This document shows, one piece after another, positions 1,618-22,844 of a stretch of DNA of 64,000 nucleotides. The number at the start of each line of letters is the position of its first letter. Position 1 is the stretch's first letter. Under the pieces are notes generated by a model, which was not told the origin of the DNA, searched no databases, and saw only the letters and a list, made by a program, of their open reading frames with translations. This DNA comes from Micromonospora sp. NBC_01796 (GTDB taxonomy: Bacteria > Actinomycetota > Actinomycetes > Mycobacteriales > Micromonosporaceae), in the NCBI RefSeq assembly GCF_035917455.1, contig NZ_CP109078.1, positions 8,416,001 to 8,480,000 of the forward strand. The letters run 5' to 3'. The position numbers were made by a program, and so were the translations under genes.

Positions 1618-2440
1618 GAGGGACCACCAGTTCGTCGGAGGAGGTGGAAGCGGGGAGTTGAGGGCTCGGGTTGGACAGGCGGGTGGGCCGACCGTCCGAC
1701 AAGGCCTTGCCGGTCCGGTCACCGCCGACGCGCACCCGGCGTCGCCGCTGGACGCGCGCAGGCGTGGCGGCCCATCGGTACCCGGGGGTGTCGAGGAAAG
1801 GGCGTACGGGGGTCGCGTCGGGCTTCCGCCCTGGGGGATTCGCGAGGCACTGCGGCGCGGCCCGGTGGAGCGGACCGGCGTGTCGGCGGTGGTCGGTTCA
1901 GTGACGGTGGCCGGGCCGCCAGGTGCGATGACGAGGCCTTTTGTGAGCCGATTTCCCTCCTCTCCGGTCGGTGTTCCGACCCATTCGGCAGGACTCACCC
2001 GGACCATTTTCATACTCACTAGATAGGAATGGTTCCGCGAACCAAACCGACCAGACAAGAGTGCTTTCACAATTCAGATCGGCAAGAAGATAGTGATCGA
2101 CGTCACTCTTTTTGGGTGGCAGGCAACATCTTGGCAATCAAAGTAGGTCGATATTTAACACGATGACCCGATGCCGGACAGAAACCTGCCAGCTTCCTGC
2201 CCAGGTCAGCGCGACGCGTCCTCGACTGGCGGCAGATATCCGGCATACCGGCGGACTCACCGGAAAAACCCTCAGGCCCACGCTCTAGTTAGGGAGATTT
2301 AACTGAGCCGTAACTAAGCTGGCCTAACTTAATTGGAGCCCGAGATCGATTAGCGCCAATTATCTACGGGTCACCTCGGTTGATCATTTGATTGATTCGG
2401 TCGCATCCGAGAAACCGCCGCCCCATGAAGTGGGAGTCCG
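1618..2440. other. Long noncoding region between divergent tauE-like and PKS genes
   Basis: No convincing gene was found in these 823 nt. The GC-rich part next to the TauE/SafE gene (about 1618-2030) has no family-like coding sequence and may be a long 5' leader. The stretch 2040-2440 is distinctly AT-richer than its surroundings (for example around 2080-2160 and 2286-2400), so it probably holds the promoters for both divergent transcripts. I could not assign a riboswitch. Confidence 0.6.
2287..2330 (+). promoter_or_regulatory. Cluster of TAACT repeats upstream of the PKS operon
   Basis: Three direct TAACT copies start at 2300, 2311 and 2325, the first two one helical turn (11 bp) apart. An inverted pair AGTTAGG (2287-2293) / CCTAACT (2323-2329) brackets them. 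The cluster is about 110-150 bp before the PKS start codon in an AT-rich patch. This layout suggests a cooperative operator or activator site; the regulator is unknown. Confidence 0.4.
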
Positions 2441-8400: not shown

Positions 8401-9814
8401 CGCCGGGCAGCCCGTCGACGTGCTCGCCGGGACCAGTTTCCTCATCACCGGCGCCAGTCCGGCGCTGGCCTACCTCGCCGAACTCCTCCAGGAGCATGGG
8501 GCGGGTGGGCAGACCGGTGTAGCGGACGGGAAGCAGGCCGGTCAGCTCGGCGGCTTCGACGGGCTGATCCTGCTCGACGGGTTGACCGGCGCCGGAGCCC
8601 CTCTGCTGCCCGAGATCTTCCCGTTCCTCAAGCAGGCGCTCGCAGCCGGTCCACGCTGGCTGCTGGCGGCGGGACCCGTTGGCGGGACCGACCGTACCGA
8701 TGGACTGGCCGGCCTGTTCCGTACCATTGCCAGGGAGTACCCGCAGGTCACGGCCAGGTACGTCGAGGTCGACGCGGCCGCCGACCCGCAGCGGATCGCC
8801 CGACACCTGCTCGACGAACTGCTGGCCGGCGGGGACGCACCGGTTGTCGTACGGGGCGAGACCGAGCGGACCACGGTCGACCTCGCACCGGTGGCGCTGG
8901 GAGCGGTGGCGACGAGCGGTGCCGGGCCGGCCGGCGACGGCGCCTCCGAGGCAGCGGCGATCGGCCTCGACCGGGACTCGGTGGTCGTCCTGGTCGGTGG
9001 GGCGCGCGGGATCACGCCGTGGTTCGCCCGTGCGGTGGCCATGGCGAGCCGCTGCCGGATCGAGCTGGTGGGTCGCACGCCACTGCCGACCGAGCCGGAG
9101 GATCCGGACCTGGTGTCGGCCCGGGACAGGGCGTCGTTGCGGGCCGCGCTCGCCCGCCGGGGTCTACGGTCACCGGCGGAGATCGAACGCACCGCGCAGG
9201 CGGTCCTGGCCGCCCGCGAGGTCGAGGCGACCCTCGGCGAGCTGCGCGAGTTGGGCAGCGAGGTGCGCTACCACGCCCTCGACGTGCGGGACGCGTCGGC
9301 GACCCGGAGTCTGCTGCTGGACATCGAGCGTACGCACGGCCGGGTCGACGGCGTCGTGTACGCGGCCGGGGTGATCGAGGACAAGCTGATCGCGGAGAAG
9401 GACCCGCAGTCGTTCGCCCGGGTGTTCGGCACCAAGGTGGAGGGCGCCCGCTCGGTACTGGCCGGCCTGGACGAGCTGGGCTCGGCGCCCCGCTTCGTGG
9501 TGCTGTTCGGCAGCATCGCCGCGGCGTACGGCAATCGGGGTCAGGGCGACTACGCCGCGGCGAACGACGCGATCGACGCGATCGGCGCCCGGTGGGCGGC
9601 CGGCACCGGCAACCGCTGCGTGACCGTGCACTGGGGTCCCTGGGCGCCGGGCGCCGGGCACGGCGGGATGGTCAGTGCCGAGCTGAGCCGGGAGTACGCC
9701 AGGCGCGGCATCGAACTGATCGACCCCGAAGCGGGCGCGCTGAGTCTGTTGAGCGAGTTGGCCTGGGGCGACCCGAAGATCAACTCCGTGGTCTACACCG
9801 CCTCGGGCTGGTGA
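2441..9814 (+). CDS. Pfa-like type I polyketide/fatty acid synthase: NMO-like, NMO/ER, KS, AT, ACP, ACP, KR
   Basis: A 2,457-aa iterative-type megasynthase. Domains in order: a nitronate-monooxygenase-like half (about 5-230); a second, better conserved NMO/2-nitropropane-dioxygenase domain (about 293-500) like the PfaD enoyl reductase, with VQGPMTRVSD and EGAECGGHVGPR; KS (657-1104; Cys849 in DAACASS, His984 in HGTGT, His1024 in GHTKCAAG); AT (about 1214-1506; Ser1306 in GHSYGE); two ACPs with the Pfa-type DLSIDSIKR motif (Ser1727, Ser1845); a KR structural half (about 1895-2120) and catalytic KR (about 2179-2457; GGARGIT, Ser2358, Tyr2371). It should condense malonyl units and reduce the beta-keto and enoyl groups, with dehydration coming from the next protein. 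The start has GGGAG 5 nt upstream. KS-AT-ACPn-KR is the PfaA order; fusion of the ER to its N-terminus is unusual against the separate PfaD of marine bacteria. Product unknown. Confidence 0.92.
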   Translation: MSPAPNTRDLVIAISAGSLLEPSPRIATAARHGGGHGVLDLASGDSWTLTGLAQATAGSSEPIGVRVPAGCTATPADVDRAGHGRVDLVVVPLDTPWPLAEVVDRYRVLVEVTSLDDARLAAAAGAHGLIARGMEGGGRVSELSSFVLLQQLAAADGIDLPIWVAGGIGPRTAVACVIGGATGVVLDSQLTLMPESELPADVRGTIRRLDGSETVLVDGVRGIRRGGPHDSASQLLPIGQDGWLAAVFAQRWPDTAAAVRGIRATLLEAIAEPAAGDALAPGAALADALNVRIPVVQGPMTRVSDEAPFAAAVAADGALPFIALALSGAEQSRRVLRETADRLGDRPWGVGVLGFAPDELRAAQLEAIREIRPACAIIAGGRPSQATVLEQDGINTFLHVPSPGLLRQFLRSGARKFVFEGAECGGHVGPRASFPLWEAQLLVLEEFLADKPDDAGRLQLLFAGGIHDARSAAMVAAMAAPLTGRGARIGLLMGTAYLFTSEAVEEGAIQPLFHQQAIAATGTSLLETAPGHATRCLPSPFVDDFHGVREELESAGVENRQVWEQLELLNVGRLRIASKGVRREEDGLARVDEAVQAVEGMFMAGQVAVLRHAPTTVAELHAQVTTEAREFHAVRAAALRAELTPPATPVEEPPAPLDIAIVGMSCILPGSPDLHSFWQTVLGGADAVTEVPTDRWDVDTYYAPEVGPGQAGRISVSRWGGFIDPVPFDAIRYGIPPAALSSIDPTQLLALEVAHRALVDAGYPYDAAGADHSQTGVVFGAEAGSDMGHAQTLRTMLPAYLGDVPTELEDQLPTVTEDSFPGVLANVIAGRVANRLDLGGPNYTIDAACASSLAAMDAACKELSAGSSDLMICGGADLHNGINDYLMFTSAHALSPTGRCRTFDSTGDGIALGEGVACVVLKRLADAERDGDRIYAVIKGVGSSSDGRALGLTAPRASGQRRALDRAYHRTGVSPRQVGLVEAHGTGTVVGDRTELETLTRFFDEAGAEPGSCALGSVKSQIGHTKCAAGLAGVIKASLALYTGVKPPTIHLTRPNPAWSPERSPFAFYTGARPWTAPAAERLAGVSAFGFGGTNFHTVLSAYPNGPEPRHTRQSWPAELFCFRGADRPAAQSRVRRLVEMLATRDELGRPWSLRDLAASLAGEADHRAGAVRIAVVARDRDELAKLLDRALAGEHDPARGLVQPPDDPEPGKVAFLFPGQGSQRPGALAELFVAFPELRHYLRLGDEWADLLFPPSAFDPETVREQEDRVRDTRVAQPVLGIGGLAVDHLLRRLGVRPDLAGGHSYGELVALCVADAFDPETLLALSRQRADAILAATGDDPGTMAAVTGTAEQVGRVLAEAGLAGEVVLANRNTPTQVVISGPTPAVGSAVAALREAGLTARGLSVACAFHSPVVAGGTARFAEALAASTVREPAIPVWSNHTAAPYDGDADRVRERLAAQIGAPVRFVEQVESMYASGARIFVEAGPGQVLTKLVRAVLGDRPHLAVAAEPRPEEGLRGFLVGVAQLACAGVPVRTGWLFQGRDTVDLATVEPARRPFWTVDGQLVRDQFGNSLPGGMTPPRRIKELSMTASNETTFGGRDGRDELLSEFLRTSRDMIASQRDVMLAYFGEGAGGRLVWQPTEAYPPVVLPGHGNEVAPVTTTALVAVSPAAPAGAVDVAAVPVAASGPDFQTAILDVISERTGYPVDLIELDLDLEADLSIDSIKRAEVAGEVAARLRLAVEGDEAELEDLVKARTVRTMVDWLNHKMRSTAGTTVIHATAVLGPASGSAHSGGLVATGTVVVARPDFQTAILDVISERTGYPVDLIELDLDLEADLSIDSIKRAEVAGEVAARLRLAVEGDEAELEDLVKARTVRTMVDWLNQKMQGEAVAAPSVGNGALAPPPAPRALTTAAPAPMAAPSTPATMSPAIAPAPVPAVAVADTVTVAAEVTTGARAGITPKRLLPQAKVIAGPSGADAGAPLAGQPVDVLAGTSFLITGASPALAYLAELLQEHGAGGQTGVADGKQAGQLGGFDGLILLDGLTGAGAPLLPEIFPFLKQALAAGPRWLLAAGPVGGTDRTDGLAGLFRTIAREYPQVTARYVEVDAAADPQRIARHLLDELLAGGDAPVVVRGETERTTVDLAPVALGAVATSGAGPAGDGASEAAAIGLDRDSVVVLVGGARGITPWFARAVAMASRCRIELVGRTPLPTEPEDPDLVSARDRASLRAALARRGLRSPAEIERTAQAVLAAREVEATLGELRELGSEVRYHALDVRDASATRSLLLDIERTHGRVDGVVYAAGVIEDKLIAEKDPQSFARVFGTKVEGARSVLAGLDELGSAPRFVVLFGSIAAAYGNRGQGDYAAANDAIDAIGARWAAGTGNRCVTVHWGPWAPGAGHGGMVSAELSREYARRGIELIDPEAGALSLLSELAWGDPKINSVVYTASGW
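7514..7757 (+). repeat. Direct repeat encoding ACP1 (copy 1)
   Basis: This 244-bp stretch is repeated at 7868-8111 with only two mismatches (an A/G in the Leu-Val-Lys-Ala stretch and a C/G at 7750/8104). It encodes the whole first ACP domain. Near identity including silent positions indicates recent duplication or ongoing gene conversion. Confidence 0.95.
7868..8111 (+). repeat. Direct repeat encoding ACP2 (copy 2)
   Basis: Second copy of the ACP-encoding repeat, offset by 354 bp (118 codons) from copy 1. The inter-ACP linker is not repeated, so the unit is the domain itself rather than domain plus linker. Confidence 0.95.
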
Positions 9815-9887: not shown

Positions 9888-12800
9888 ATGAACACGAGCA
9901 CCGATCGGCGCGACCCGGTCGCGATCGTCGGGATGGCGGCGGTGATGCCCGGCGCCGGCAACCTGGAAAACTACTGGCGCAACCTGGTCGACGGCGTGGA
10001 CGCGATCACCGACGTGCCGGCGCACCGGTGGGACGACGAGTTCTACGACCCGGACCAGGCCCACCGACCGGACAGGATGTACTGCCGGCGCGGCGGGTTC
10101 GTGGACGAGTTCGCGAGCTTCGAGCCGCTGCGGTTCGGCATCATGCCCGCATCGGTGGCGGACATCGAGCCGGACCAGCTCATCGCCCTGAACGTGGCCG
10201 CTGCCGCGATCGACGACGCCGGCGGGGCGGACCGGCTGCCCGACGGCGACCGGGTGGGCGTGATCCTCGGGCGGGGCGGCATCCTCAGCCCGGCCCAGGC
10301 CCGCTATGCCCAACGGGTACGGATGTCGAGCCAGGTCATCCAGGTCCTGCGGGAGTTGATCCCGGAACTGGACCAGAGCCGGCTCGACCTGGTACGCGAG
10401 AAGTTCGACGAGCGGCTCGGCCCGTACCAGCCGGAGGGGACGATCGGGCTGGTGCCGAACCTGGCCGCGTCCCGGGTGGCCAACCGGCTCAACCTGCGCG
10501 GTCCGGCGTACACCCTGGACGCGGCCTGCGCCTCGTCGCTGATCGCGGTCGACCAGGCGATCACCGAACTGACCAGCGGACGGTTGGATGCCGTACTCGC
10601 CGGCGGGGTGCACCACGTGCACGACATCAGCTTCTGGTCGGTGTTCAGCCAGTTGCGGGCGCTGTCCCGGCGTGGGGAGAGCCGGCCGTTCCACCGGGAG
10701 TCCGACGGGCTGCTGATCGGCGAGGGCACCGGTGTGGTCGTACTGAAGCGGTGGTCCGACGCGGTCCGCGACGGCGACCGGGTATACGCCGTCATCCGGG
10801 GCAGCGGTATGTCCAGCGACGGCCGCTCGGCGAGCATGTTCAACCCGGCCTCCTCCGGACAGGTGCTGGCCATCCGGCGGGCCTGGGAGGCGGCGGGGCT
10901 GGATCCGACCGCGCCGGACTCGCTGGGGTTGCTGGAGGCCCACGGCACCGGTACGCCGACCGGCGACGCGGCCGAACTGGTCTCGGTCGCCGAGGTGTTC
11001 GGCCCACACGGCGGTGACGGACCGCGCCCGGTGATCGGCTCGGTCAAGTCGATGATCGGGCACACCATGCCGGCTGCCGGCATCGCCGGCCTGATCAAGG
11101 CAACGCTCGCGGTGCACCGGGGGGTGCTGCCGCCCACCCTGCACTGCGACGACCCACGCCCGGAGATGACGGCGACCCGGTTCGCCCCGGTCGCCACCGC
11201 CCGCCCCTGGGAGAGCGACGGGCCACGTCGCGCCGGGGTGAACGCCTTCGGCTTCGGCGGCATCAACGCACACGTCATCGTCGAGCAGGCACCCGAGCCG
11301 GCCGGCGTACGGAACCGGCTGGCCGGCGGGGTCCCGGTGACAGCGGGCGGTGCGGGTGTCGGAGGAGGCGTGGCCTCGACCGTGGCCGGCTCGACGGTCG
11401 AGGTGACCGAGCCGGACCAGGTGCTCTGGCTCGCCGCGCCGGACCCCGTCCGGCTGGCCGGCCTGCTCTCCCGCGACGACCACGAGGTACGGGCCCTCGG
11501 CATCGAACGGGCCCGGAGCAACCGGCCCGCGACCGAGGGCGAGCCGTGCCGGATCGGCATCGTCAACCCGACCGACAAGCTGCTGGCGGTCGCCCGCAAG
11601 ACCGTGGCCCGGGGGCAGGCGTGGCGCGGTGGTCGGGACATCTGGTTCAGTCCGTCGCCGCTGTTGGCCGCCGGCACCGGGCGCCTCGCCTTCGTCTTTC
11701 CCGGCCTGGAGGCGGAGTTCGCCCCGCGTACCGCGGATATCGCCGCGCACTTCGGGCTGCCGGACCGGCAGTGGTCCGCGACGGACCTGGGCCGGCACGG
11801 CGCCGGGCTGATCGAGGTGGGCAAGCTGCTCGATGAGGCGCTGCGCCGCGTCGGCGTGCTGCCGGACACGGTCGCCGGACACAGCATCGGCGAGTGGACC
11901 GCCGCCGCGACCAGTGGACAGATCAGCACGGCGGCGATGGACGAGTTCCTGGAGCTGTTCAACGCCGACTCGGTCGAGGTCTCCGGGTACGTCTTCGCCG
12001 CCGTGGGAGCCGGTGCCGAGCGCGTCACCCCGATGCTGGGCGACTTCCCCGGGGTGGTGCTCTCACACGACAACGCCCCGGCACAGTCGGTGGTGAACGG
12101 CCCCGAATCCCAGGTGGACCGGCTCGTCGAAGCGCTGCGTACGGAGAACGTGCTGTGCCAGAAGCTGCCGTTCCGGTCGGCCTTCCACACTCCCGTGTTC
12201 GCCGACGGCCTGCAGTCGATCGGTGCGGCGCTGCGCCGGTGGGAGGTGCACCCGACTCGGATACCGGTCTGGTCGGCGACCCTGGCGGCACCGTTCCCCG
12301 CCGACGAGGCGCAGGTCAACGCCCTGTTCGTCCGGCACATGATGGAGCCGGTCTGGTTCCGTCAGACCGTGGCGGCGATGTACGACGCCGGCGTACGGGT
12401 CTTCCTCCAACTCGGCGCCGGACAGCTCGCCTCGCTGATCAGCGACAACCTGCGCGGGCGTGACCATCTCGCGATGCCGGTCAACGTGAAGCACCGCAGC
12501 GGGCTGGACCAGCTCCGCCGGGTCGCCACCGCGATCTGGGTGGAGGGCGGCAGCCCGAACCTGACCGCGCTCGACCCGCGACCAGCGAAGACGCCCGCGA
12601 AACCGGTACGGCGTGGCCCGTCGGTTCCGCTGGACCTGGGTGGACCACTGGTCCGGCTCGGTGCCGGTGCCGCCGGTCTGCTCGGCGTCTCGGTGGGCGG
12701 CGTCCAGCCGCACCATCTGTCCGGTGCGACGGACAACGGTCCGGCCGTGCCGGTCGACGCGTCGGCGACAGGTGGGGCGGGACGCCAGCCGGAGCCGGCA

Positions 12801-14711
12801 GGTACCGGCGGTAACCCGGCGGCGGCGCTGGCCGCACTGCACCGGTTGGCCGGGCGGTCCAGCGCGGCGGCGGAGCTCGCCGCACTGTTGCAGGACACGG
12901 CGCGGGACGCGGTCAGCGTGCTGGACGCCGCCGCACCGGCGCACCGCGCGCAGCGACCGGCTCCGCCGGTGGTGCCGCGGCCGGTTGTCGGGCAGCCCCC
13001 GGTCGCCCCGCCGGCCGGGACCATCCGAACCACCGGCCCCCACACCCCCGGCAACGGCAACGGCACCACGGCCAGCGGGGTCGGTCCGGCCAACATGTCC
13101 GACACCGGGAGGGAGGCCAACGGCGGCAACGGCGGCCGGGGTACGGTTCGGCGGATCACGTTGCGGGTCTCGGTCGAGACCATGCCGTACCTGAGGGACC
13201 ACTGCTTCTTCGTCCAGCCACCGGACTGGCCGAACATGGAGGACCGGTGGCCGGTGGTGCCGGCGACCACCCTGGTCCAGCACATGGTGGACGCGGCGGA
13301 GCAGGCGGTGCCCGGTATGCGGGCGGTGGCCGTACGCGAGGCCAGGTTCAACCGTTGGCTGATAGCCGAGCCGGGTCAGGACGTCGAGATCACGGTGAAG
13401 CCGACCGGTGACGGCCTGGTCTCGGTCACCTTCGGCCCGTACGCCCGGTCGACGGTGGAACTCGCCACGGACTATCCGGCGGACCCGCCCGAGGTGTGGC
13501 GGCACGATCCCGCGACCGAACGGCCGCCACGGATCAGCGCCGAGGAGATGTACGCGGAGCGGCTGATGTTCCACGGCCCCCGGTTCCAGGGTGTCACCGC
13601 CGTACACGCCCTCGGGGACATGCACGTACGGGGCGTGGTCACCGCACCCGTACCGCCGGGCGCTCTGCTGGACAACGCGCTGCAGCTGATCGGCAACTGG
13701 CTCATCACCACGCAGCCGTTCCGTACCGTGGCGCTGCCCGTGGGCCTGGGGCACATCCGGTACTTCGGGCCACCGCCGCAGCCCGGTACGGCGTTCGAGT
13801 GTGTCGCCCGGGTGCGCTCGATCGACGACGCCCAACTCGTCGCGGACACCCAACTGGTAGTCAACGACCGGGTGTGGGCGCAGATCGAGGGCGCGGTCGA
13901 CCGCCGTTTCGACAGCCATCCGCAGGCGCGGCCAGCGGAACGGTTCCCCGAGCGGCATCCGATGTCGCTGATCCAACCCGAGGGCTGGACGATGGCCTTC
14001 GACTGCTGGACCGACCTGGTCACCCAGGGCATGGCCGCGCGCGGCATCCTGGGCTCGGCCGCGTACGCGGACTACGAACGGCAGCCCGCCAAATCCCGCA
14101 AGCAGTGGCTGTTGGGCCGGATCGCGGTGAAGGACGCCGTCCGGTTCCGGTTGTGGGAGGACGGGCACAGCGACATCTACCCGATCGAGCTGACGGTCGG
14201 CAACGATCCGGACGGGCGGCCCCGGGTGTACGGACGTCCGGGCCGTGACCTGCGCGACTGCGACGTCTCGCTGGCGCACTGCGCCGAGATCGGCGTCGCG
14301 GTCGCGAAACCCCGCGATTCGGCGTCGCCACCCGACGCGCCGGGCGTCGGCATCGACGTCGCCGAGATCACCGACCATCCGGAGAGCACCCTGCGCTTCG
14401 CCCTGTCCGACGGGGAGACCGCCCTGCTGGACTCACTCGGCGGCGACGCCGAGGACCGGCGACGGTGGTTCACCCGGTTCTGGGCCGCCAAGGAGGCCGT
14501 CGGCAAGGCGGAGGGAACCGGACTCGACGGGCGCCCGCGCCGGTTCGTCGTGACGAGTGCAACGGACACGGTGCTGACCGTCCACGTCGACGATCGGATC
14601 TACCCGGTGGAGCACCGCGAGGTCGGCAATCCCGACGACCTACCGCCCCGACGCTACGTCGTCGCCTGGACCTGGGGCCCGCGAACCGGCGCCGTGGCTG
14701 ATCAACCGTGA
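9888..14711 (+). CDS. Pfa/PKSE-like synthase: KS, AT, DH, in-cis phosphopantetheinyl transferase
   Basis: A 1,607-aa partner of the upstream synthase, 73 nt downstream with GAGAGG before ATG 9888. Domains: KS (about 5-470) with intact Cys214 (DAACASS), HGTGT and GHTMPAAG; AT-like domain (about 600-870) with Ser666 in GHSIGE; a low-complexity Pro/Gly/Ala linker (about 900-1085); a PKS-type double-hotdog DH (about 1088-1360) with His1105 in YLRDHCFF and Asp1262 in LLDNALQ; and a C-terminal PPTase (about 1400-1600) with Asp1490 in GIDVAEI and Lys1535/Glu1536 in FWAAKEAVGK. The PPTase would load the ACPs of this locus. It has no ACP, KR or chain-length-factor domain, so it must work in trans with the first protein. 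The DH-PPTase tail recalls enediyne PKSE, while the split over two proteins recalls PfaA/PfaC. There is one DH, not the tandem FabA-like pair of PfaC. Confidence 0.9.
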   Translation: MNTSTDRRDPVAIVGMAAVMPGAGNLENYWRNLVDGVDAITDVPAHRWDDEFYDPDQAHRPDRMYCRRGGFVDEFASFEPLRFGIMPASVADIEPDQLIALNVAAAAIDDAGGADRLPDGDRVGVILGRGGILSPAQARYAQRVRMSSQVIQVLRELIPELDQSRLDLVREKFDERLGPYQPEGTIGLVPNLAASRVANRLNLRGPAYTLDAACASSLIAVDQAITELTSGRLDAVLAGGVHHVHDISFWSVFSQLRALSRRGESRPFHRESDGLLIGEGTGVVVLKRWSDAVRDGDRVYAVIRGSGMSSDGRSASMFNPASSGQVLAIRRAWEAAGLDPTAPDSLGLLEAHGTGTPTGDAAELVSVAEVFGPHGGDGPRPVIGSVKSMIGHTMPAAGIAGLIKATLAVHRGVLPPTLHCDDPRPEMTATRFAPVATARPWESDGPRRAGVNAFGFGGINAHVIVEQAPEPAGVRNRLAGGVPVTAGGAGVGGGVASTVAGSTVEVTEPDQVLWLAAPDPVRLAGLLSRDDHEVRALGIERARSNRPATEGEPCRIGIVNPTDKLLAVARKTVARGQAWRGGRDIWFSPSPLLAAGTGRLAFVFPGLEAEFAPRTADIAAHFGLPDRQWSATDLGRHGAGLIEVGKLLDEALRRVGVLPDTVAGHSIGEWTAAATSGQISTAAMDEFLELFNADSVEVSGYVFAAVGAGAERVTPMLGDFPGVVLSHDNAPAQSVVNGPESQVDRLVEALRTENVLCQKLPFRSAFHTPVFADGLQSIGAALRRWEVHPTRIPVWSATLAAPFPADEAQVNALFVRHMMEPVWFRQTVAAMYDAGVRVFLQLGAGQLASLISDNLRGRDHLAMPVNVKHRSGLDQLRRVATAIWVEGGSPNLTALDPRPAKTPAKPVRRGPSVPLDLGGPLVRLGAGAAGLLGVSVGGVQPHHLSGATDNGPAVPVDASATGGAGRQPEPAGTGGNPAAALAALHRLAGRSSAAAELAALLQDTARDAVSVLDAAAPAHRAQRPAPPVVPRPVVGQPPVAPPAGTIRTTGPHTPGNGNGTTASGVGPANMSDTGREANGGNGGRGTVRRITLRVSVETMPYLRDHCFFVQPPDWPNMEDRWPVVPATTLVQHMVDAAEQAVPGMRAVAVREARFNRWLIAEPGQDVEITVKPTGDGLVSVTFGPYARSTVELATDYPADPPEVWRHDPATERPPRISAEEMYAERLMFHGPRFQGVTAVHALGDMHVRGVVTAPVPPGALLDNALQLIGNWLITTQPFRTVALPVGLGHIRYFGPPPQPGTAFECVARVRSIDDAQLVADTQLVVNDRVWAQIEGAVDRRFDSHPQARPAERFPERHPMSLIQPEGWTMAFDCWTDLVTQGMAARGILGSAAYADYERQPAKSRKQWLLGRIAVKDAVRFRLWEDGHSDIYPIELTVGNDPDGRPRVYGRPGRDLRDCDVSLAHCAEIGVAVAKPRDSASPPDAPGVGIDVAEITDHPESTLRFALSDGETALLDSLGGDAEDRRRWFTRFWAAKEAVGKAEGTGLDGRPRRFVVTSATDTVLTVHVDDRIYPVEHREVGNPDDLPPRRYVVAWTWGPRTGAVADQP

Positions 14712-14746
14712 CCGGCACCCAACCCCCATCCGAAGGAGTAGATCCC

Positions 14747-15085
14747 ATGGCCGCCTCGCACGCCGACATCCTCGCCGAACTCACGGGAATCATCGACGCG
14801 GTACTCGGCGACTTCGCCACCGATGCCCCGATCACCATGGACACCACCTTCCGCGACGAGCTCGGCATGGAGAGCATCGACGTCGTCTCCCTCGCCGGCC
14901 GGTTGCAGGCCCGGTACGGCAACACCGTCAACTTCGCGCACTTTGTCGCCAAACTGGATCTGGAGACCGTGGGCGAGCTGCGGGTCGGGCAACTGGTCGA
15001 GCACATCGCACACTCCCTCGACGCGGCCGGCCGGGACAGGCCGGCCGACGCCAGTCCCACCGTTGTCGAGGCGGTCCGCTCGTGA
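14747..15085 (+). CDS. Free-standing acyl carrier protein
   Basis: A 112-aa carrier protein. The phosphopantetheine-attachment region reads FRDELGMESIDVVSLAGRL, with the serine in the MESID motif, followed by helix 3 around the KLDLETVGELRVGQLVEHI segment. The start is ATG 14747, preceded by GAAGGAG 9 nt upstream; an in-frame GTG at 14708 overlaps the end of the PKS gene but lacks a binding site. It differs clearly from the tandem ACPs of the megasynthase (DLSIDSIKR type), so it probably has a separate job, such as starter supply or carrying the finished chain to the following hydrolase and sulfotransferase. Its stop overlaps the next start (GTGA), which couples their translation. Confidence 0.9.
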   Translation: MAASHADILAELTGIIDAVLGDFATDAPITMDTTFRDELGMESIDVVSLAGRLQARYGNTVNFAHFVAKLDLETVGELRVGQLVEHIAHSLDAAGRDRPADASPTVVEAVRS

Positions 15086-15927
15086 CGATGATCCGGGCCA
15101 ACGGAATCGAGATGCACGTCGAGCGACTCGAGCCACCGGACGGAGGGGCGGGCGCGGGCCGCACCGGCCGGAATGACGGGCCGGCCACCCTCGTGATGAT
15201 CCACGGGATGGCCTCCGACAGCCTCGCGAGCTGGTATTTCACGGTGGCCAAGCCGCTGGCCGACGCCGGGCTGCGGGTGCTGATGTACGACCTGCGGGGG
15301 CACGGCCACAGCGAGCGCCCACCCACCGGCTACGCCCTCGACGACTTCGTCGACGACCTGTCGGCGATGCTGACCGAACTCGACGTCGCCGGTCCGGTGC
15401 ACCTGCTCGGGAACTCGTTCGGCGGCACGATCGCGTTCGCGTACGCGGTCCACCACCCGGACCGGGTCGCCTCCGTCACGGCGATCGAATCGTCACCACC
15501 GACCAGGGCGTGGATGGCCCGGGTCGCGCGCCGGCTGGACCGGGCCGCCAATCTCCTGCCCCGGCCGGAGGCGCTGGCACAGATCAGCGCCGGTCGGGGG
15601 GAACGGGTGGCCCGACGGGCCCGGGCCACCGGCGAGATGCTGGTCACGACCACCCTGGCCAGGGACCTTCCGGCCAGTGCCCTGCCCAGCTCCGCGCAGA
15701 TCAGCGCGATCGGCGTACCGGTGCTCTGTTTGTACGGCGCGAACTCCGCGGTCGTCGAGCTGGCACCTGCTGTGGTCCGGCTACTACCGCAGACGCGGAC
15801 CGTCGTCCTACCCGGCGAGAAACACACCGTCCTGATCGACCGCCCGGAGGCGGTACGCCGGCTCGTCCTGGCCTGGCTCCGCGAGGAGTGCGCCGTCGAG
15901 GTGGCCGAGGCCGCCACCACCCCGTGA
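15082..15927 (+). CDS. Alpha/beta-hydrolase, possible CurM-like thioesterase
   Basis: A 281-aa soluble alpha/beta-hydrolase overlapping the ACP stop by 4 bp (GTG 15082; ATG 15088 is an alternative). Visible are the oxyanion-side HGMASD (about 41), YDLRGHGHS (69-77), nucleophile Ser112 in GNSFGG and catalytic His248 in GEKHTV. The position after strand 7 where most family members carry Asp (YGxxD) reads LYGANSAV, without an acid. A Glu136 sits after strand 6 (TAIESSPP), exactly 24 residues past the Ser, the spacing recalled for the Ser-Glu-His triad of the decarboxylating thioesterase of CurM. With the next gene a sulfotransferase, this could be the TE half of a split ST-TE release pair. A generic release thioesterase or ester hydrolase remains possible. 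Confidence 0.8.
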   Translation: MTMIRANGIEMHVERLEPPDGGAGAGRTGRNDGPATLVMIHGMASDSLASWYFTVAKPLADAGLRVLMYDLRGHGHSERPPTGYALDDFVDDLSAMLTELDVAGPVHLLGNSFGGTIAFAYAVHHPDRVASVTAIESSPPTRAWMARVARRLDRAANLLPRPEALAQISAGRGERVARRARATGEMLVTTTLARDLPASALPSSAQISAIGVPVLCLYGANSAVVELAPAVVRLLPQTRTVVLPGEKHTVLIDRPEAVRRLVLAWLREECAVEVAEAATTP

Positions 15928-15953
15928 CAACCCATCGTGCAGGAGGTCTTCGG

Positions 15954-16916
15954 ATGGACACCCCGGTCCCCGGCAGGTCGATCATCATCAGCAACGGCCG
16001 GTGCGGCTCGACGCTGCTCTCGGACCTGATCGCGGAGCAGCCCGAGACTCTCTCGGCGCAGGAGTTCTTCATGTCCGTCGCACCCTGGGCACGCAGTTCC
16101 GAGGTGCTCACCGGTGCCGCGTACTGGGCGGTGCTGAGCAGCCCCAAGGCGGAACTCGCCACCCTCTTCCGGATCGGGCTGCCGCCGAAGGAGGTGCGCT
16201 ATCCGGCGACCGGCCGGTGGGCGGACCGGATGACCGAACTGCCGCGGATCCTCGCCATCACCCTGTCGAAGCTGACCGCCGACCCGGACCGCCTGTTCGA
16301 CCAACTCGCCGAGCGGGTGCCGGACTTCCCGACGCAGTCGGTCGGTGACCACCACCGGATGTTCCTCGACCTGCTGGCCGTGGTCACCGGCAAGCGGCGC
16401 TGGGTCGAGCGTTCCGGCGGGTCGAGTCACGTCGCTCCGTACCTGTTGCGGGCGTTTCCCGAGGCGAAGGTGGTGTACCTGACCCGCGACCGGGAGGCTA
16501 CCGCCCGGTCGATGAGCCGGCACTCGTCGTTCCAGCTGATCCAGCTGCGGGTGGAGTTCCTCGGCCGGTGCGGGCTCGATCCTTTCCGGATCGAGCCTGG
16601 CCAGTCGGTGCCCGAGGATCTGGAACGGTATCTGCCGGACCGGCTCACCGCCGACCTGCTCCGGGAGCGGGGACAGGACCTGCGCCGCTACCTCGGTCTG
16701 AGCGCGTTCCTGACCAGCCAGGCCGAGCAGGCGCTCACCGACCTGCCTCCGCGACACCTGCACCGGATGAGCTACGAGGACCTGGTCGCCGACCCGGTCG
16801 GGCAACTCGGCCTGCTGGCCCGGTTCCTTGAGTTCGAGGACTGGGAGGACTGGGCGCGGCGGGTCGCCGGGCGGGTCGTCGCGCCCGTCCGGTCCCGAGA
16901 GGTCGCCGCGGCCTGA
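15954..16916 (+). CDS. PAPS-dependent sulfotransferase
   Basis: A 320-aa cytosolic sulfotransferase. The 5'-phosphosulfate-binding loop is at residues 11-20 (ISNGRCGST, standing for the RxGST of bacterial enzymes), and the 3'-phosphate-binding region is at about 172-193 (KVVYLTRDREATARSMSRH, with Arg178 and Ser186). AGGAGG lies 7 nt before ATG 15954, giving a strong start 26 nt after the hydrolase. It would move a sulfuryl group from PAPS to a hydroxyl. In this setting the acceptor is most likely the beta-hydroxyl of an ACP-bound chain (as in CurM/Ols) or a hydroxyl of the released lipid. The PAP phosphatase and ATP sulfurylase genes 5-7 kb downstream on the same strand match its cofactor need. 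The acceptor cannot be told from sequence alone. Confidence 0.88.
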   Translation: MDTPVPGRSIIISNGRCGSTLLSDLIAEQPETLSAQEFFMSVAPWARSSEVLTGAAYWAVLSSPKAELATLFRIGLPPKEVRYPATGRWADRMTELPRILAITLSKLTADPDRLFDQLAERVPDFPTQSVGDHHRMFLDLLAVVTGKRRWVERSGGSSHVAPYLLRAFPEAKVVYLTRDREATARSMSRHSSFQLIQLRVEFLGRCGLDPFRIEPGQSVPEDLERYLPDRLTADLLRERGQDLRRYLGLSAFLTSQAEQALTDLPPRHLHRMSYEDLVADPVGQLGLLARFLEFEDWEDWARRVAGRVVAPVRSREVAAA

Positions 16917-16971
16917 CCGCATACCTGACCCCACCGAACGTCGTGACTCCGTCGAACGAGAGGAACCATTG

Positions 16972-18792
16972 GTGAAACCATTCCGGATGTCGGGCCGGCG
17001 ACCGCTCGCCGCGGCCGCCGTACTGGGACTGCTGTACGTGCTGGCGGCGCCGTCGCCGGTCACCGCCGCCCCGATCGGGACGGACGCACCGGGTACGGCC
17101 GGACACCAGCCGACGTACGAGCGGAAGCTGATCGGAAAGGGCACCCCGGACGAGTGCTTCGCCGGTGTCGGTGTGGCCTATCCGACCGGTCCCCCCTGCG
17201 CGACCGGGCAGTCGAAGGTGAACCAGTCCTACCTGTGGGGCATGACCCAGACCGAGCAGAGCCTGTGGTTCGGCACCGGCGCGAACGTCAACTGCCTGAC
17301 CAGCGGGCGCAACCTGCGCAACACGACGCCGAACCTGAACGATGACTGGGTCTGCGAGTACGGCGAGAGCCAGATCGCGAAACGCAACCCGACCCTGCCC
17401 GCCACCCTCGGCGACCATCGCCCGCCCCGGCTGTACACGTACGACAAGCGTTCGCGGCGGTTGACGGAGAAGACCGACGCGGTCAAGAACGCCTCCACCA
17501 CCGACGCCAACCGGCTGAGCACGACCGCTGGAATCCGCTCCGCCGGCACCCATCAGGGCGTGGCGTTCCTCGGTGGGCCCGCCCTGGGCGAGAGCATCAA
17601 CCTGTTCGCCTTCGACACCCACACCGGAGCCTTCCTCGGCTCGGTCAACCTCCCGGCGTACGGCAACATCCGCCACTTCGTGGTGGCCGACGGCGCGCTC
17701 TACGCGGGTGTCGGGGTGGGCGCGAACGGCGGCAACCGGGGGCACGTGCTGCGCTGGACCGGCTCTCGGAGCAACCCGTTCAGCTTCGTCGAGGTCGCGA
17801 ACCTGCCGGCCCAGGCGGCGGACCTCACCGTGCACGACGGACGGATCTTCGTCACCACCTGGACGGGTTCCGGTGACGACGCCCTGGCAGCCGCGGTACC
17901 CGGCACGACCGACGAGCCGCTGTCCGGGGTCGCCGGGGTGTGGATGAGCCCGAAGCTGTCGCACGGGGAACGCGGCCTCACCCCGGCCGACGCCGACAGC
18001 TGGGCCCAGGTCTGGTCGGTGGACGGGTACGAGCCCGATCCGGTCGTCGCCCGCACCTACGCCCTGGGTGGACTGGCCTCGTTCAACGGTTACCTCTACT
18101 GGGGCACGATGCACGTGCCGATGAAGGCGACCACGGTGCACATCGCGACCTACCCACCGGCGAACGAGGCCGCGCTGCGCGCCTCGGTACGCGGCACCCA
18201 GCGGGCGATCAGCATCTTCCGCGGTAAGAGCTTCGGCGACCGCCACCAGCGGGTGGACCTGCTGTACGGCGCACCCCAACTGCCCGCGTACGACCCGGCC
18301 GGTAACGGTGGCGCGGGCGCGTGGGCCGCCGCGCCGACCGGCTACACCCCGCTGTACGGCCCGTCGGGCATGGGCAACCCGTACAACAACTACACGTGGA
18401 AAATGGCGGTGGCGGGCGGGAAACTCTACGTGGGCACCATGGACTGGAGCTACATCTCCAAGGACCTGGGCCAGGACACCGCCCGGGTGTTGGGTGTCAC
18501 CGGCCCGGCCGCGGCCGAGTTCGGCGACGCCTCCGTGCTGGCCGACGACCCCCCGCCGGCACCGGTCTACGGCGGTGACCTGTTCGTCTTCGACTCGACC
18601 AGCAAGCCGGCCACGGTGGTGGACAACAGTGGGCTCGGCAACTACCTGAACTACGGGATCCGCAACATGGTCGCCGACGGGTCGACCCTCTACCTGGGCA
18701 TGGCCAATCCGATGAACCTGCGTACGGACCCGGATGACGACGTCCCCGAGGGCGGCTGGGAACTGATCCGGCTGAGTATGCAGCGCTGTTAG
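16972..18792 (+). CDS. Large secreted protein of unknown function
   Basis: A 606-aa exported protein starting at GTG 16972, 55 nt after the sulfotransferase, with GAGAGG upstream. The N-terminus is a classical signal peptide: basic MSGRRP, a hydrophobic stretch LAAAAVLGLLYVLAAP, and probable cleavage after VTAA. The mature part has repeated beta-rich blocks of the style NLFAFDTHTGAFLGSV, HFVVADGALYAGVG, DLTVHDGRIFVTTW, MAVAGGKLYVGTM and NMVADGSTLYLGM, which look like blades of a beta-propeller. Five cysteines, four of them within the first 150 residues, suggest disulfides. I do not recognise the family. As the last gene before a strong hairpin it appears to belong to the PKS operon, perhaps acting on or binding the exported product. 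Confidence 0.8.
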   Translation: MKPFRMSGRRPLAAAAVLGLLYVLAAPSPVTAAPIGTDAPGTAGHQPTYERKLIGKGTPDECFAGVGVAYPTGPPCATGQSKVNQSYLWGMTQTEQSLWFGTGANVNCLTSGRNLRNTTPNLNDDWVCEYGESQIAKRNPTLPATLGDHRPPRLYTYDKRSRRLTEKTDAVKNASTTDANRLSTTAGIRSAGTHQGVAFLGGPALGESINLFAFDTHTGAFLGSVNLPAYGNIRHFVVADGALYAGVGVGANGGNRGHVLRWTGSRSNPFSFVEVANLPAQAADLTVHDGRIFVTTWTGSGDDALAAAVPGTTDEPLSGVAGVWMSPKLSHGERGLTPADADSWAQVWSVDGYEPDPVVARTYALGGLASFNGYLYWGTMHVPMKATTVHIATYPPANEAALRASVRGTQRAISIFRGKSFGDRHQRVDLLYGAPQLPAYDPAGNGGAGAWAAAPTGYTPLYGPSGMGNPYNNYTWKMAVAGGKLYVGTMDWSYISKDLGQDTARVLGVTGPAAAEFGDASVLADDPPPAPVYGGDLFVFDSTSKPATVVDNSGLGNYLNYGIRNMVADGSTLYLGMANPMNLRTDPDDDVPEGGWELIRLSMQRC

Positions 18793-18906: not shown

Positions 18907-19929
18907 ATGATGGAAATCTGTAGATCTTGGATAGGTCATGCGGGACCGCGCACCCGGTGGCGGCACCTGCTCACGGTCGTTCCGCTCGTCGGAGCGCTCA
19001 CCCTGCTGGCCGGTTGCGGGCTGTTCCGGGACGACCCGGAGCAGCACGAGGTCGGGCCGGTGTCCACGATGCCGAGCGGCTCCTCGGCGCACACCCTCGT
19101 GGTCGACGGGCAGGAGCGCGACTTCCGCCTCTACCAGCCGGCGAACCTCACCCGGTCGACCGCGGTGCCGCTCGTGGTCATGCTGCACGGTGCCCTCGGC
19201 ACAGGCGCCCAGGCGGAAAACTCGTACGGCTGGAACACCGAGGCGGACCGGGAGGGCTTTGTCGTCGCGTACCCGGACGGGGTGAGCCGTTCCTGGGCGG
19301 TGAGCCCGGACTGCTGCGGCCCACCGGCCCGCGACGGCGTGGACGACGTGGCCTTCATCCAGCAACTGGTCTCCACCGTGGCCGACCGGCTTGCGGTGGA
19401 CCGCAACCGGATCTACGCCACCGGGATCTCCAACGGCGGAATGCTCGCATACCGACTGGCGTGCGACACGAAGCTGTTCGCCGCGATCGGGCCGGTGGCC
19501 GCGACCCAACTCGGCCCGTGCCCGTCACCGGCACCGACCTCCGTGATCCACATCCACGGGACGGCGGATCAGACAGTGCCGTTCGGCGGTGGTCCGGGCA
19601 AGCGGGACAACGACGGGACCGGGCGTAATCCGGTCAAGATCGACGGTCCGCCCACCCCCGACCTGCTCGGCCAGTGGCGTACGACCGGCGGTTGCGGCGC
19701 TCCGGCGACCACCGCCTCGGGCCCGGTCAGCACCTCGGTCGCCACCTGTCCCGGGGGACGGGCGGTCGAGTTGGTCACCGTCGACGACGCGGGCCACCAG
19801 TGGCCCGGTGCCGCCGGCCCCGAACCGGCGGCGCAACGCCTACTCGGCCTGGATCCACCCTCGACCGCGCTGGACGCGACCGAGACCATCTGGCGTTTCT
19901 TCGACGCACATCCCCGAACCGGCGGCTGA
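18907..19929 (+). CDS. Lipoprotein esterase of the PHB-depolymerase/LpqC family
   Basis: A 340-aa alpha/beta-hydrolase lipoprotein. The N-terminus has basic residues, a hydrophobic run (LTVVPLVGALTLLAGC) and a lipobox LAGC, so it should sit on the outer face of the membrane. Family marks: VVMLHGALGT, FVVAYPDGVSRSW, nucleophile Ser in GISNGGMLAYRL, IHGTADQTVPF with the acid, and the His in DDAGHQWPG. A disulfide-like SPDCCGPPARDGVDDVAFI segment matches LpqC-type polyhydroxybutyrate-depolymerase and feruloyl-esterase relatives. Its start has no obvious binding site, and it begins 114 nt after the previous gene, beyond a hairpin. The ABC exporter follows 47 nt later, so it may process an exported ester or lipid; the substrate is unknown. 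Confidence 0.82.
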   Translation: MMEICRSWIGHAGPRTRWRHLLTVVPLVGALTLLAGCGLFRDDPEQHEVGPVSTMPSGSSAHTLVVDGQERDFRLYQPANLTRSTAVPLVVMLHGALGTGAQAENSYGWNTEADREGFVVAYPDGVSRSWAVSPDCCGPPARDGVDDVAFIQQLVSTVADRLAVDRNRIYATGISNGGMLAYRLACDTKLFAAIGPVAATQLGPCPSPAPTSVIHIHGTADQTVPFGGGPGKRDNDGTGRNPVKIDGPPTPDLLGQWRTTGGCGAPATTASGPVSTSVATCPGGRAVELVTVDDAGHQWPGAAGPEPAAQRLLGLDPPSTALDATETIWRFFDAHPRTGG

Positions 19930-19976
19930 CCGAACCGGCGCCCATCCACCCCACAGTTCAGGACAGGGAGCAGCAG

Positions 19977-21116
19977 ATGCCCAGCAGTGGTGGCAGCCCG
20001 CCCGCGGTCGAGGTCGCCGACCTCGTCAAACGCTATCCCGCAAGCACGACCGCAGCCGTGGACGGGCTGTCCTTCACCGTGGCCCCCGGCGAGATCTTCG
20101 GGCTGCTGGGACCGAACGGCGCCGGCAAGTCGACCACCATCGGCATCCTCACCACCCGGCTGCGGGCGTCTGCGGGCCGGGCGCTGGTCGGTGGGGTCGA
20201 CGTGGTCGGCGACCCGGTCGCGGCCCGTGCCCAGTTGGCCGTCGTGCCCCAGCACAACAACCTGGACCGGTCGCTGACGCCACGACAGAACCTGCTGTAC
20301 CACGCCGCATACCACGGTGTCGGGCGCGCCGACCGCAAGGCCCGGGCCGACGTACTGCTGGACCGTTTCGGCCTGACGGATCGGGCCGACAAGCGGATCG
20401 AGGCGTACTCGGGCGGGATGGTGCAACGGCTGATGATCGCTCGTGCGCTGATCCACGAGCCGGCGGTGCTCTTCCTCGACGAGCCCACCAACGGTCTGGA
20501 CCCGCAGTCCCGGCGGCTGATCTGGGGCCGGATCCGCGAGATGCGCGGGCGCGGCGTGACCATCGTGCTGACCACGCACCAGATGAACGCGGCCGCCGCC
20601 CTGGTCGACCGCGTCGGCATCGTCGACCACGGTCGGCTGCTCACCCTGGACACGCCGGGCAACCTGGTCAAAGGGCTCGCCGGACGATCGATCCTCGATC
20701 TGACGGTCACCCCGGCCGTGCTCGACGAACCGGACGAGCTTCTGCGTGCACTTACCGAGGTCTCCGGCGTACGCAAGGGTGAACGGCTCGCCGTGGCGTC
20801 GCCGCCCGGCGCCGGGGCCGCCAACCTTCGCTCCGGCCTCGGCCTGGGCGGCGGCGCGGCGCTCGGCGCGGGTGTGCCGGCTGCTGCACTGGCCGCGCTG
20901 GCCCGACGGGAGCGGGCGGTCGCCACGCTCACCCCCGACCCCGGTGGGCGCCAGCGCGTCAGGATCCGGCTGCATCTCGCCACCGACCCCGCCACTGTGC
21001 TCGGGCCGGCTCTCACCATCCTGACCACGCGGTCGGCGACCCTCACCGACGTACACATCGCCGAGCCGAGCCTCGAAGACGTCTTCATCGGACTGACCGG
21101 AAGGGATCCACGGTGA
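19977..21116 (+). CDS. ABC transporter ATP-binding protein (DrrA-like)
   Basis: A 379-aa ATPase of the drug/lipid exporter (DrrA/CcmA-like) type. It shows Walker A GPNGAGKST (about 50), a Q-loop (VVPQHNNLDRSLTPRQ), signature YSGGMVQRL, Walker B AVLFLDEPT and the switch His in TTHQM. The C-terminal part carries the DUF4162-like tail common in DrrA proteins (LEDVFIGLTGRDPR end), interrupted by a Gly/Ala-rich insertion of about 40 residues (around 275-315, with LGLGGGAALGAGVPAAAL), which is unusual. ATG 19977 has AGGGAG upstream. The stop overlaps the permease start by 4 bp, so the two form one exporter. Its place between the PKS genes and sulfate-activation genes suggests export of the product. 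Confidence 0.9.
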   Translation: MPSSGGSPPAVEVADLVKRYPASTTAAVDGLSFTVAPGEIFGLLGPNGAGKSTTIGILTTRLRASAGRALVGGVDVVGDPVAARAQLAVVPQHNNLDRSLTPRQNLLYHAAYHGVGRADRKARADVLLDRFGLTDRADKRIEAYSGGMVQRLMIARALIHEPAVLFLDEPTNGLDPQSRRLIWGRIREMRGRGVTIVLTTHQMNAAAALVDRVGIVDHGRLLTLDTPGNLVKGLAGRSILDLTVTPAVLDEPDELLRALTEVSGVRKGERLAVASPPGAGAANLRSGLGLGGGAALGAGVPAAALAALARRERAVATLTPDPGGRQRVRIRLHLATDPATVLGPALTILTTRSATLTDVHIAEPSLEDVFIGLTGRDPR

Positions 21117-21943
21117 CCGACCTCGACGCCCCGCCGGTAGCGGCAACGAGCACCACGGCGGCGCCCGTGAGACCCGGCGCCCACCGGGTCTTCCTGGCCA
21201 TCCTGCGCCGGGACCTGCTGGTCACCGGCAAGGAACTCTGGGTCATCCTGGTCCAGGTCGGCCTCACCCCGCTGTTCATGCTCTTCGTCTTCGTCAAGGT
21301 GCTCGGCGGGCAGGGCATCGTCGACCGGAACTTCGCCGACCTGTTCCTGCCCGGCATCATCGCGCTCGCCGCGCTCACCACCGCGCTGCAGAGCGTCGCG
21401 CTGCCACTGGTCAAGGAGTTCGGCTTCACCCGGGAAATCGAGGACCGGCTGCTCGCCCCGCTGTCGACAAACCTGGTCGCGGTCGGCAAGCTCGTGGTCG
21501 CGATGCTGCGCGGCCTTATCGCCGCGGCCCTCATCTACCCGCTGGGTGCACTGATGGTCGGCTCAGCCCCGTTGCAGCCCGAACGGCTGCCGATGGTCCT
21601 GCTGACGGTCCTGCTCGGCGGATGGATCGGGGGCGGCATCGGCATGACGCTGGCGACGATTCTGCCCATCCAACGGATCAACATCACGTTCTCGCTGGTC
21701 GTGACCCCGATCATCTGGACCGGTTGCATCCACTACCCGTGGCCACGGCTCTCCTCGATGCCCTGGTTCCAGACGGTCACCGCCCTCAACCCGATGACCT
21801 ACGTCTCCGAGGGCGTACGGGGGGCCATGTTGCCCGGCGTCGCACACATACCGGCCTGGGTCTGTCTCCTGGTCCTGGCCGGCGTGGCCGCGATGGTCAC
21901 GTTCACCAGCGTACGAAGCTTCAGTCGGCGTGCCGTCCAGTGA
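21113..21943 (+). CDS. ABC-2 type transporter permease (DrrB-like)
   Basis: A 276-aa membrane permease with six predicted hydrophobic segments (LWVILVQVGLTPLFMLFVFV, LFLPGIIALAALTTAL, an amphipathic REIEDRLLAPLS segment, the MLRGLIAAALIYPLGALMVG stretch, ILPIQRINITFSLVVTPIIW and a C-terminal CLLVLAGVAAMVTF). The EFGFTREIEDRLLAPLS element is the conserved cytoplasmic segment of DrrB-type ABC-2 permeases. GTG 21113 overlaps the ATPase stop (GTGA), so the pair is translationally coupled. It should form a homodimer with two ATPase subunits and export a hydrophobic substrate. Confidence 0.9.
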   Translation: MTDLDAPPVAATSTTAAPVRPGAHRVFLAILRRDLLVTGKELWVILVQVGLTPLFMLFVFVKVLGGQGIVDRNFADLFLPGIIALAALTTALQSVALPLVKEFGFTREIEDRLLAPLSTNLVAVGKLVVAMLRGLIAAALIYPLGALMVGSAPLQPERLPMVLLTVLLGGWIGGGIGMTLATILPIQRINITFSLVVTPIIWTGCIHYPWPRLSSMPWFQTVTALNPMTYVSEGVRGAMLPGVAHIPAWVCLLVLAGVAAMVTFTSVRSFSRRAVQ

Positions 21944-21980
21944 ACGGCACGATCCACGCGTCTACCGGAGGTGCTCGTCG

Positions 21981-22844
21981 ATGAACGTGCTGGAACCCCC
22001 CAGGTCCGAAGCCCCCGCGTCTGATGGTGCGTTCGCCGCCTGGTTGGCCGACCGGGCCGGCCGGCTGCTGCTGCGCGTACGCGCGGAGCACGGTCACGAC
22101 GACCCGGCCGCGTTGAAGCGCGCGGGTGACCGGGCGTCGCACCAACTGCTGCGCGATGAACTGGCCCGGTGCAGGAGCGCCGACGCCGTGCTCTCGGAGG
22201 AGGACGACGGCGCCCGGCAGGCATGGGCCACGGGTACGGCCGGACCCGCGCCGGACCGGCTGGGCGCCGACCGGGTGTGGATCATCGATCCGTTGGACGG
22301 AACCCGTGAGTTCTCCGAGCCGGGCCGGACGGACTGGGCGGTACATGTCGCACTCTGGCAACGGAACGCGGCTACGGAGCACCGTCTCATTGCGGGCGCC
22401 ATCGCCCTGCCCGCCCAGCACCGTACCCTCGGCACCGCGACACCCCCACCCCGGCCGACGACGGTCAGCGGTCGGACGATCCGGTTGGCGGCGAGTCGGA
22501 GTCGGCCGCCGGCGTTCCTCAGCGAGTTGGCGGACGAGGTCGGTGCGGAGTTGGTGCCGATGGGGTCGGCCGGGGCGAAGATCGCGGCGGTGATCAGTGG
22601 TGAGGTCGACGCGTACGTGCACGCGGGCGGGCAGTACGAGTGGGACTCGGCCGCGCCGGTGGCTGTGGCGACGGCCACGGGGCTGCACGCTTCCCGAATC
22701 GATGGTTCTGCGTTGAAATACAACGAGGCCGATCCCCGGTTGCCGGACCTGGTGGTCTGCCAGCCGGAGCTGGCCGCACCGCTGCTCGCAGCGCTGCGGC
22801 AACACCTGACCCTCGTGCCGGCAACGGCCACGGCAGTCGGCTGA
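21981..22844 (+). CDS. cysQ: 3'(2'),5'-bisphosphate nucleotidase, PAP phosphatase of the inositol monophosphatase family
   Basis: A 287-aa metal-dependent phosphatase. The family motifs are all visible: LSEEDD (first metal site), the DPLDGT box in IIDPLDGTREFSE, and WDSAAPVAV near the C-terminus. Extra residues after DPLDGT (REFSEPGRTDWAVHVAL) match CysQ/Hal2-type enzymes that hydrolyse 3'-phosphoadenosine 5'-phosphate rather than inositol phosphates. The start was set at ATG 21981 behind CGGAGGTG; an in-frame ATG at 21930 overlaps the permease gene. PAP is the inhibitory by-product of PAPS-using sulfotransferases, so having this gene 6 bp before cysD and in the same strand run as a sulfotransferase points to a dedicated PAPS cycle. 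The exact substrate is inferred. Confidence 0.85.
   Translation: MNVLEPPRSEAPASDGAFAAWLADRAGRLLLRVRAEHGHDDPAALKRAGDRASHQLLRDELARCRSADAVLSEEDDGARQAWATGTAGPAPDRLGADRVWIIDPLDGTREFSEPGRTDWAVHVALWQRNAATEHRLIAGAIALPAQHRTLGTATPPPRPTTVSGRTIRLAASRSRPPAFLSELADEVGAELVPMGSAGAKIAAVISGEVDAYVHAGGQYEWDSAAPVAVATATGLHASRIDGSALKYNEADPRLPDLVVCQPELAAPLLAALRQHLTLVPATATAVG

Follow-up and report, generated by a model that had tools for sequence, protein, structure and literature searches.

Organization of the operon

The genome of Micromonospora sp. NBC_01796 is contained in one contig of 8.56 Mb. The window (the whole 64,000-nucleotide stretch of that genome that was analysed) carries genes of a Pfa-like polyketide synthase (PKS), followed on the same strand by genes for acyl carriage, chain release, sulfate transfer, export and sulfate activation:

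703-2070, minus strand: TauE/SafE family transporter (PF01925), divergent from PKS1
2441-9814, plus strand: PKS1, PfaD-like enoyl reductase (NMO)-KS-AT-ACP-ACP-KR (NMO, KS, AT and KR by Pfam)
9888-14711, plus strand: PKS2, KS-AT-DH-phosphopantetheinyl transferase (Pfam and motifs)
14708-15085, plus strand: free acyl carrier protein (PF00550, PP-binding)
15082-15927, plus strand: alpha/beta hydrolase, 281 aa, with Ser112-Glu136-His248 (PF00561); probable chain-release enzyme
15954-16916, plus strand: PAPS sulfotransferase (ST), 320 aa, CurM/Ols-ST-like (PF13469)
16951-18792, plus strand: secreted-type protein of about 613 aa, approximate start; accompanies the ST
18907-19929, plus strand: extracellular PHB-depolymerase-type esterase (PF10503; NF050058 above cut-off)
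19950-21116, plus strand: ABC transporter ATPase, approximate start (PF00005 in the frame 19674-21116)
21113-21943, plus strand: ABC-2 permease (exporter; PF01061)
21930-22844, plus strand: CysQ-like PAP phosphatase (PF00459; TIGR01331 at 81 bits, below cut-off)
22851-23777, plus strand: CysD, sulfate adenylyltransferase subunit 2 (TIGR02039 at 436.5 bits, above cut-off)
23777-25084, plus strand: CysN, sulfate adenylyltransferase subunit 1, without an APS-kinase domain (TIGR02034 at 570.7 bits, above cut-off)

All component domains of a Pfa-like secondary lipid synthase are present: KS, AT, tandem ACP, KR, DH, PfaD-type ER and PPTase. The tandem ACPs of PKS1 are near-identical and were called by two DLSIDSI motifs, not by Pfam; the active-site Cys of its KS lies in DAACAS and the Ser of its AT in GHSYG. 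PKS2 has omega_3_PfaA as its top NCBIfam match, with a score below the cut-off, and no CLF domain was found in the PKSs of the window by Pfam scan. Fused ER-KS-AT-ACP-KR and KS-AT-DH-PPTase proteins, as in the window, are described among the Pfa-like secondary lipid synthases in part of the survey of Shulse and Allen (2011, PMC3098273), which places a Renibacterium cluster under Type M; a passage of PMC13291983 likens its fused pfaDA and pfaBC-PPTase to that cluster. Compared by domain order alone, the window resembles the Renibacterium description as given in those passages, from which it differs in that no CLF was seen. The word sulfotransferase is absent from the main text of both papers. 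The divergent TauE/SafE gene is also present in related loci L009-L012 and absent from L013 and L014.

The original prediction placed a free ACP, a hydrolase and an ST, the latter two as discrete enzymes, in order after a Pfa-like PKS. Pfam bears this order out (PF00550, Abhydrolase_1, Sulfotransfer_3), and hydrolase and ST are indeed separate genes; the predicted span of 15082-16916 takes in both of them but leaves the ACP outside, and the ST itself starts at 15954.

The sulfotransferase

The ST gene starts with an ATG at 15954 that is preceded by GGAGG, and a 468-aa frame from 15510 represents an upstream extension. The protein matches PF13469 (Sulfotransfer_3) with 61.4 bits against a cut-off of 27 in a frame 5 residues shorter. 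Its GRCGST loop, Arg178 and Ser186 are invariant across 15 ST sequences, and we take these to be the PAPS-binding residues. The closest named relative, from M. chokoriensis, is 97% identical, and all eight named records from the ST search are Micromonospora.

Searches of the PDB with the single ST sequence gave one match, 2zq5, at 0.13, and profile A2 returned the CurM ST (0.001), the glycopeptide ST Teg14 (0.004) and the Ols ST (0.17). Foldseek placed a tick tyrosylprotein ST first (5.0e-5) and the CurM ST fourth (4.2e-4). The CurM and Ols STs rank at the top of the solved relatives only by profile A3, which includes distant relatives, some of them adjoining other PKSs, and by the VIA alignment. 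The enzyme is probably a polyketide ST that acts on an ACP-bound chain or on a lipid.

Sulfotransferase or glycosyltransferase behind the hydrolase

The gene that follows the hydrolase was surveyed with hydrolase profile A1, whose seed of 15 ST-linked and 2 GT-linked sequences (GT, glycosyltransferase) biases it toward the ST type. A search of the class (394 genomes, E <= 1e-45) found the hydrolase at 71 places in 54 genomes, and a search of the window's family, the Micromonosporaceae (354 genomes, E <= 1e-60), at 66 places in 64 genomes; two places are common to both, giving 135 in total. Neighbours were sought on the same strand from -400 to 3200 bp behind the hydrolase in the class search and from -50 to 1500 bp in the family search, with GTs recognized by phmmer using the GT of locus L090 as query. 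The slot is occupied by an ST at 57 places, by a GT1-type glycosyltransferase at 77, by neither at 1 and by both at 0. All 57 ST places belong to the window's family. The class search gave 68 GTs, all on the strand of the hydrolase and at most 410 bp from it save for two at 770 and 1432 bp, and two STs, both in the window's family; the family search gave the 57 STs at gaps of -3 to 566 bp (median 36), and the remaining nine places all have a GT directly behind the hydrolase. The five adjacent GTs that were scanned are all UDPGT/EryCIII-like by Pfam. At L179 (G199:C269), the sole exception among the 71 class-search places, neither a GT nor an ST lies within 3.2 kb behind the hydrolase.

An ACP precedes at least 31 of the 32 distinct ST-linked hydrolases and at least 74 of the 77 GT-linked ones, and all 24 GT loci that extend far enough upstream have PKS2. 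The actinobacterial PKS-ACP-hydrolase-GT operon, found at 77 of the 135 places, has the PKS pair, the ACP, the hydrolase and the gene order of the window; it differs in having a GT for the ST and a hydrolase lid that is mostly acidic. The ST-hydrolase pair is conserved and probably functionally coupled. Within the literature covered, which lies mostly outside subscription papers, no title concerns STs of Pfa-like clusters in actinobacteria or an exchange of ST and GT.

Genes accompanying the sulfotransferase

Among 16 ST loci (some incomplete, the window uncounted), the secreted protein occurs in 15, the esterase in 14, the exporter pair in 12, CysQ in 11, CysD in 12 and CysN in 9. L084 has the secreted protein only, L085 is without the Cys genes, and L141 has none of the accessory genes within about 5.8 kb behind its hydrolase. 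The secreted protein and the PHB-type esterase were each found in 0 of 21 GT loci. CysD, CysN and the permease were likewise found in 0 of the 21, a result that is informative for the 12 loci covered to about 13 kb past the hydrolase; the nine GT loci of the window's family reach just 5.4-6 kb behind it, too short to show CysD or CysN. Exporters are not peculiar to ST loci, since a different ABC exporter adjoins the GT of L090; two further GT loci have an ATPase-like match, and L087 has a CysQ-like match (57%) some 13 kb away. For the secreted-type protein of the window, Pfam, NCBIfam, PHROGs and the PDB gave no match. A single APS kinase turned up in the genome, outside the cluster. The swap of ST and GT in a single slot, together with the CysQ, CysD, CysN and exporter genes of most ST clusters, suggests that the head group kept on the lipid has changed from a sugar to sulfate.

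The genome carries a second cysD-cysN copy near 3.74 Mb, from which the stretch at 22876-25077 differs by 5 mismatches over 2202 bp (99.8% identity). The adjoining cysQ is only 83% identical to its counterpart there, and this sharp drop is suggestive of gene conversion between the cysD-cysN copies.

The hydrolase and its Ser-Glu-His triad

The hydrolase matches PF00561 (Abhydrolase_1) with 109.7 bits against a cut-off of 25.8. Its translation carries Ser112 in GNSFGG, Glu136 24 residues later in AIESSPP, the sequence YGANSAV after strand 7 and His248 in GEKHT; the three residues and YGANSAV are as originally predicted. Equally correct was the prediction that an Asp is missing after strand 7: phmmer aligns Ser222 with the Asp found in 4uhc (GQFD) and 5a62 (GSDD), both solved hydrolases, and the usual catalytic acid is thus absent. 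In the structural model (pLDDT 86) the strand 129-135 ends immediately before Glu136, in agreement with its predicted place at the end of strand 6, and the strand 214-219 comes before the vacant acid site.

Ser112, Glu136 and His248 are invariant across 17 aligned hydrolases. A larger set comprises 109 distinct labelled sequences, 32 ST-linked and 77 GT-linked, with two rows that have no neighbour label excluded. Here position 112 holds Ser in 107 sequences and Cys in 2; position 136 holds Glu in 108 (32 of 32 ST-linked and 76 of 77 GT-linked) and Asp in 1; His248 is kept in all 109, and position 222 holds Ser or Gly in all 109. On these alignments, conservation of the triad is not a matter of chance. 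Because Glu136 is kept with or without an ST, Ser-Glu-His is a trait of the hydrolase family that is untied to the ST. The two hydrolases with a Cys nucleophile (GNCFGG) are those of L045 and L046, both in operons of the GT type.

The TE of CurM has the same Ser-Glu-His triad, and the original prediction had read it in the window as pointing to a decarboxylating TE of the CurM type. As a marker of CurM chemistry the triad is rejected, Glu136 being the rule in ST-linked and GT-linked hydrolases alike. A spacing of about 24 residues from Ser to an acid after strand 6 also occurs in haloalkane dehalogenases and, with Asp as the acid, in type I PKS thioesterases. Nor is the CurM TE the nearest solved relative: by sequence profile that enzyme (3qit) ranks just 17th of 54 solved relatives, at 3.9e-16 against 5.4e-28 for the top match, 5a62, and the solved relatives are generic alpha/beta-hydrolases. 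In the VIA comparison the CurM TE falls outside the 50 matches listed, which is uninformative either way.

Charge reversal in the hydrolase lid

Over the lid of the hydrolase (residues 138-209), the median net charge is +5 in ST-linked sequences (range -1 to 7, n=32), versus -5 in GT-linked sequences of the same family (-7 to -2, n=9) and -4 in the other GT-linked sequences (-8 to 5, n=68), among which single lids from outside the window's family reach +5. The remaining hydrolase domain has median charges of -5, -5 and -9 in these three groups, respectively. A change in the partner ACP as the cause of the lid charge is not supported, the median ACP charge being -12 at ST loci (n=31) and -12 at same-family GT loci (n=9); it is -15 at other GT loci (n=65). 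Three lid positions, candidates for sulfate binding, stand out. Arg occupies position 179 in 29 of the 32 ST-linked hydrolases and in none of the 77 GT-linked ones, and position 172 in 28 of the former and 6 of the latter; at position 151, 26 of the 32 ST-linked hydrolases have Arg, and about 1% of the GT-linked ones have a basic residue or Asn. In a quick tree all 32 ST-linked hydrolases fall to one side of a branch supported by SH-aLRT 99, and a Mann-Whitney p for lid charge is therefore overstated, as a shift in one clade is one evolutionary event. With the ACP charge equal, a lid of +5 versus -5 indicates that the hydrolase of ST operons probably receives a sulfated chain, and the simplest reading of such a substrate is that sulfation precedes release.

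Proposed pathway and alternative readings

The genes and their order, the exchange of ST and GT, the usual presence of sulfate-activation and exporter genes and the reversal of lid charge are direct observations. Upon them a pathway may be proposed in which the Pfa-like synthase would build a long acyl chain that retains a hydroxyl, the ST would sulfate this hydroxyl, probably with the chain still on the free ACP, and the hydrolase, its lid turned positive in the ST clade, would free the sulfated acid. CysD and CysN, with the APS kinase encoded elsewhere, would supply PAPS, CysQ would clear PAP, and the ABC-2 transporter would export the sulfated lipid with its sulfate kept. We lean, by a modest measure, toward regarding the operon as an altered form of a secondary-lipid operon that is widespread in actinobacteria, with an ST in place of the GT as hydroxyl-capping enzyme and with a sulfated lipid that keeps its sulfate. 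A retained sulfate head group is, somewhat more probably than the contrary, also the better-supported outcome when set beside sulfation after release or alkene formation.

Release could come first, the hydrolase freeing a hydroxy acid that the ST then sulfates. GT1 enzymes often act on free acceptors, and RhlB-type glycosyltransferases cap free lipid, so sulfation could follow release where, as here, an ST occupies the slot of a GT1-type enzyme. The opposed lid charges of ST-linked and same-family GT-linked hydrolases suggest instead that the hydrolase meets the sulfate, and the ST resembles ACP-acting STs; sulfation after release is on balance unlikely, if still worth serious consideration.

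The original prediction envisaged termination of the CurM/Ols kind in trans, in which the ST would sulfate a beta-hydroxyl on the free ACP and the hydrolase would release the chain, with decarboxylation and loss of sulfate leaving a terminal alkene. Two of its elements survive, the nearness of the ST to the CurM and Ols STs by profile A3 and VIA and the probable delivery of a sulfated chain to the hydrolase. Also in its favour are the positive lid of the ST clade, the Ser-Glu-His triad and the ST adjoining the hydrolase at 57 of 66 places in the family. The alkene itself is unsupported. Hydrolases with the equivalent Glu occur beside a GT in ST-free operons, so that the basic activity of the hydrolase is independent of sulfate; the CurM TE ranks low among the solved relatives; and the exporter and secreted proteins usual with the ST would be needless for a hydrocarbon. 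Termination of this kind is accordingly improbable for the window, and we consider it just as improbable that a split in-trans ST and a charge-adapted hydrolase on the free ACP make a long-chain terminal alkene, having evolved from a glycolipid operon by replacement of the GT with a CurM-like ST. It is very doubtful that the hydrolase is an editing thioesterase, or an ester-forming acyltransferase as RhlA is, with the lipid leaving otherwise, for although its relatives are generic alpha/beta-hydrolases, it lies between the ACP and the capping enzyme in nearly all loci examined, which seems too regular for editing.

Relation to known systems

In heterocyst glycolipid and rhamnolipid systems, a dedicated synthase or an ACP pool provides a long acyl chain whose hydroxyl then receives the head group. 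These systems have a sugar where the window would have sulfate, and they use other release enzymes. A PKS-linked pairing of PAPS ST and hydrolase is also found in the CurM ST-TE of curacin A biosynthesis and in the Ols olefin synthase, according to parts of PMC3903477 and PMC6274090. In those systems a single PKS module contains both ST and TE, whereas the window has separate genes, a Pfa-type synthase with DH and ER, and CysQ, CysD, CysN and exporter genes; the hydrolase family of the window also stands beside a GT without any ST.

For many actinobacterial types of Pfa-like synthase no product was known in the 2011 survey, in the part of it drawn on here (PMC3098273). On the present comparison, one type of synthase is predicted to serve products of two classes, glycolipid and sulfolipid, and the near-complete one-for-one swap of sugar and sulfate enzymes over 135 places points to where the head group enters the pathway. 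The ST clade may also serve as a natural experiment on the adaptation of a release enzyme to a substrate that has become an anion.

Sulfotransferases of the family outside the operon

The ST profile also picks up distant STs outside the operon, in 6 of the 8 genomes matched across the class and at 17 of the 74 places matched across the family; the ST family is thus broader than the ST-hydrolase pair. At L139 (5615-7610, minus strand) an ST about 63% identical to that of the window adjoins a TauE/SafE transporter gene, with no PKS or hydrolase in the surrounding 12 kb. At L074 (9527-16409, minus strand) and L075 (9433-16334, minus strand) a discrete ST from this family, 40-41% identical, stands behind a KS-AT-KR-ACP-TE PKS (by Pfam for L074), so that the domain set of the CurM module is present with its ST in trans. 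The TE motif of these PKSs is of the ordinary Ser-Asp type. The two loci may be more promising ground for split chemistry of the CurM kind.
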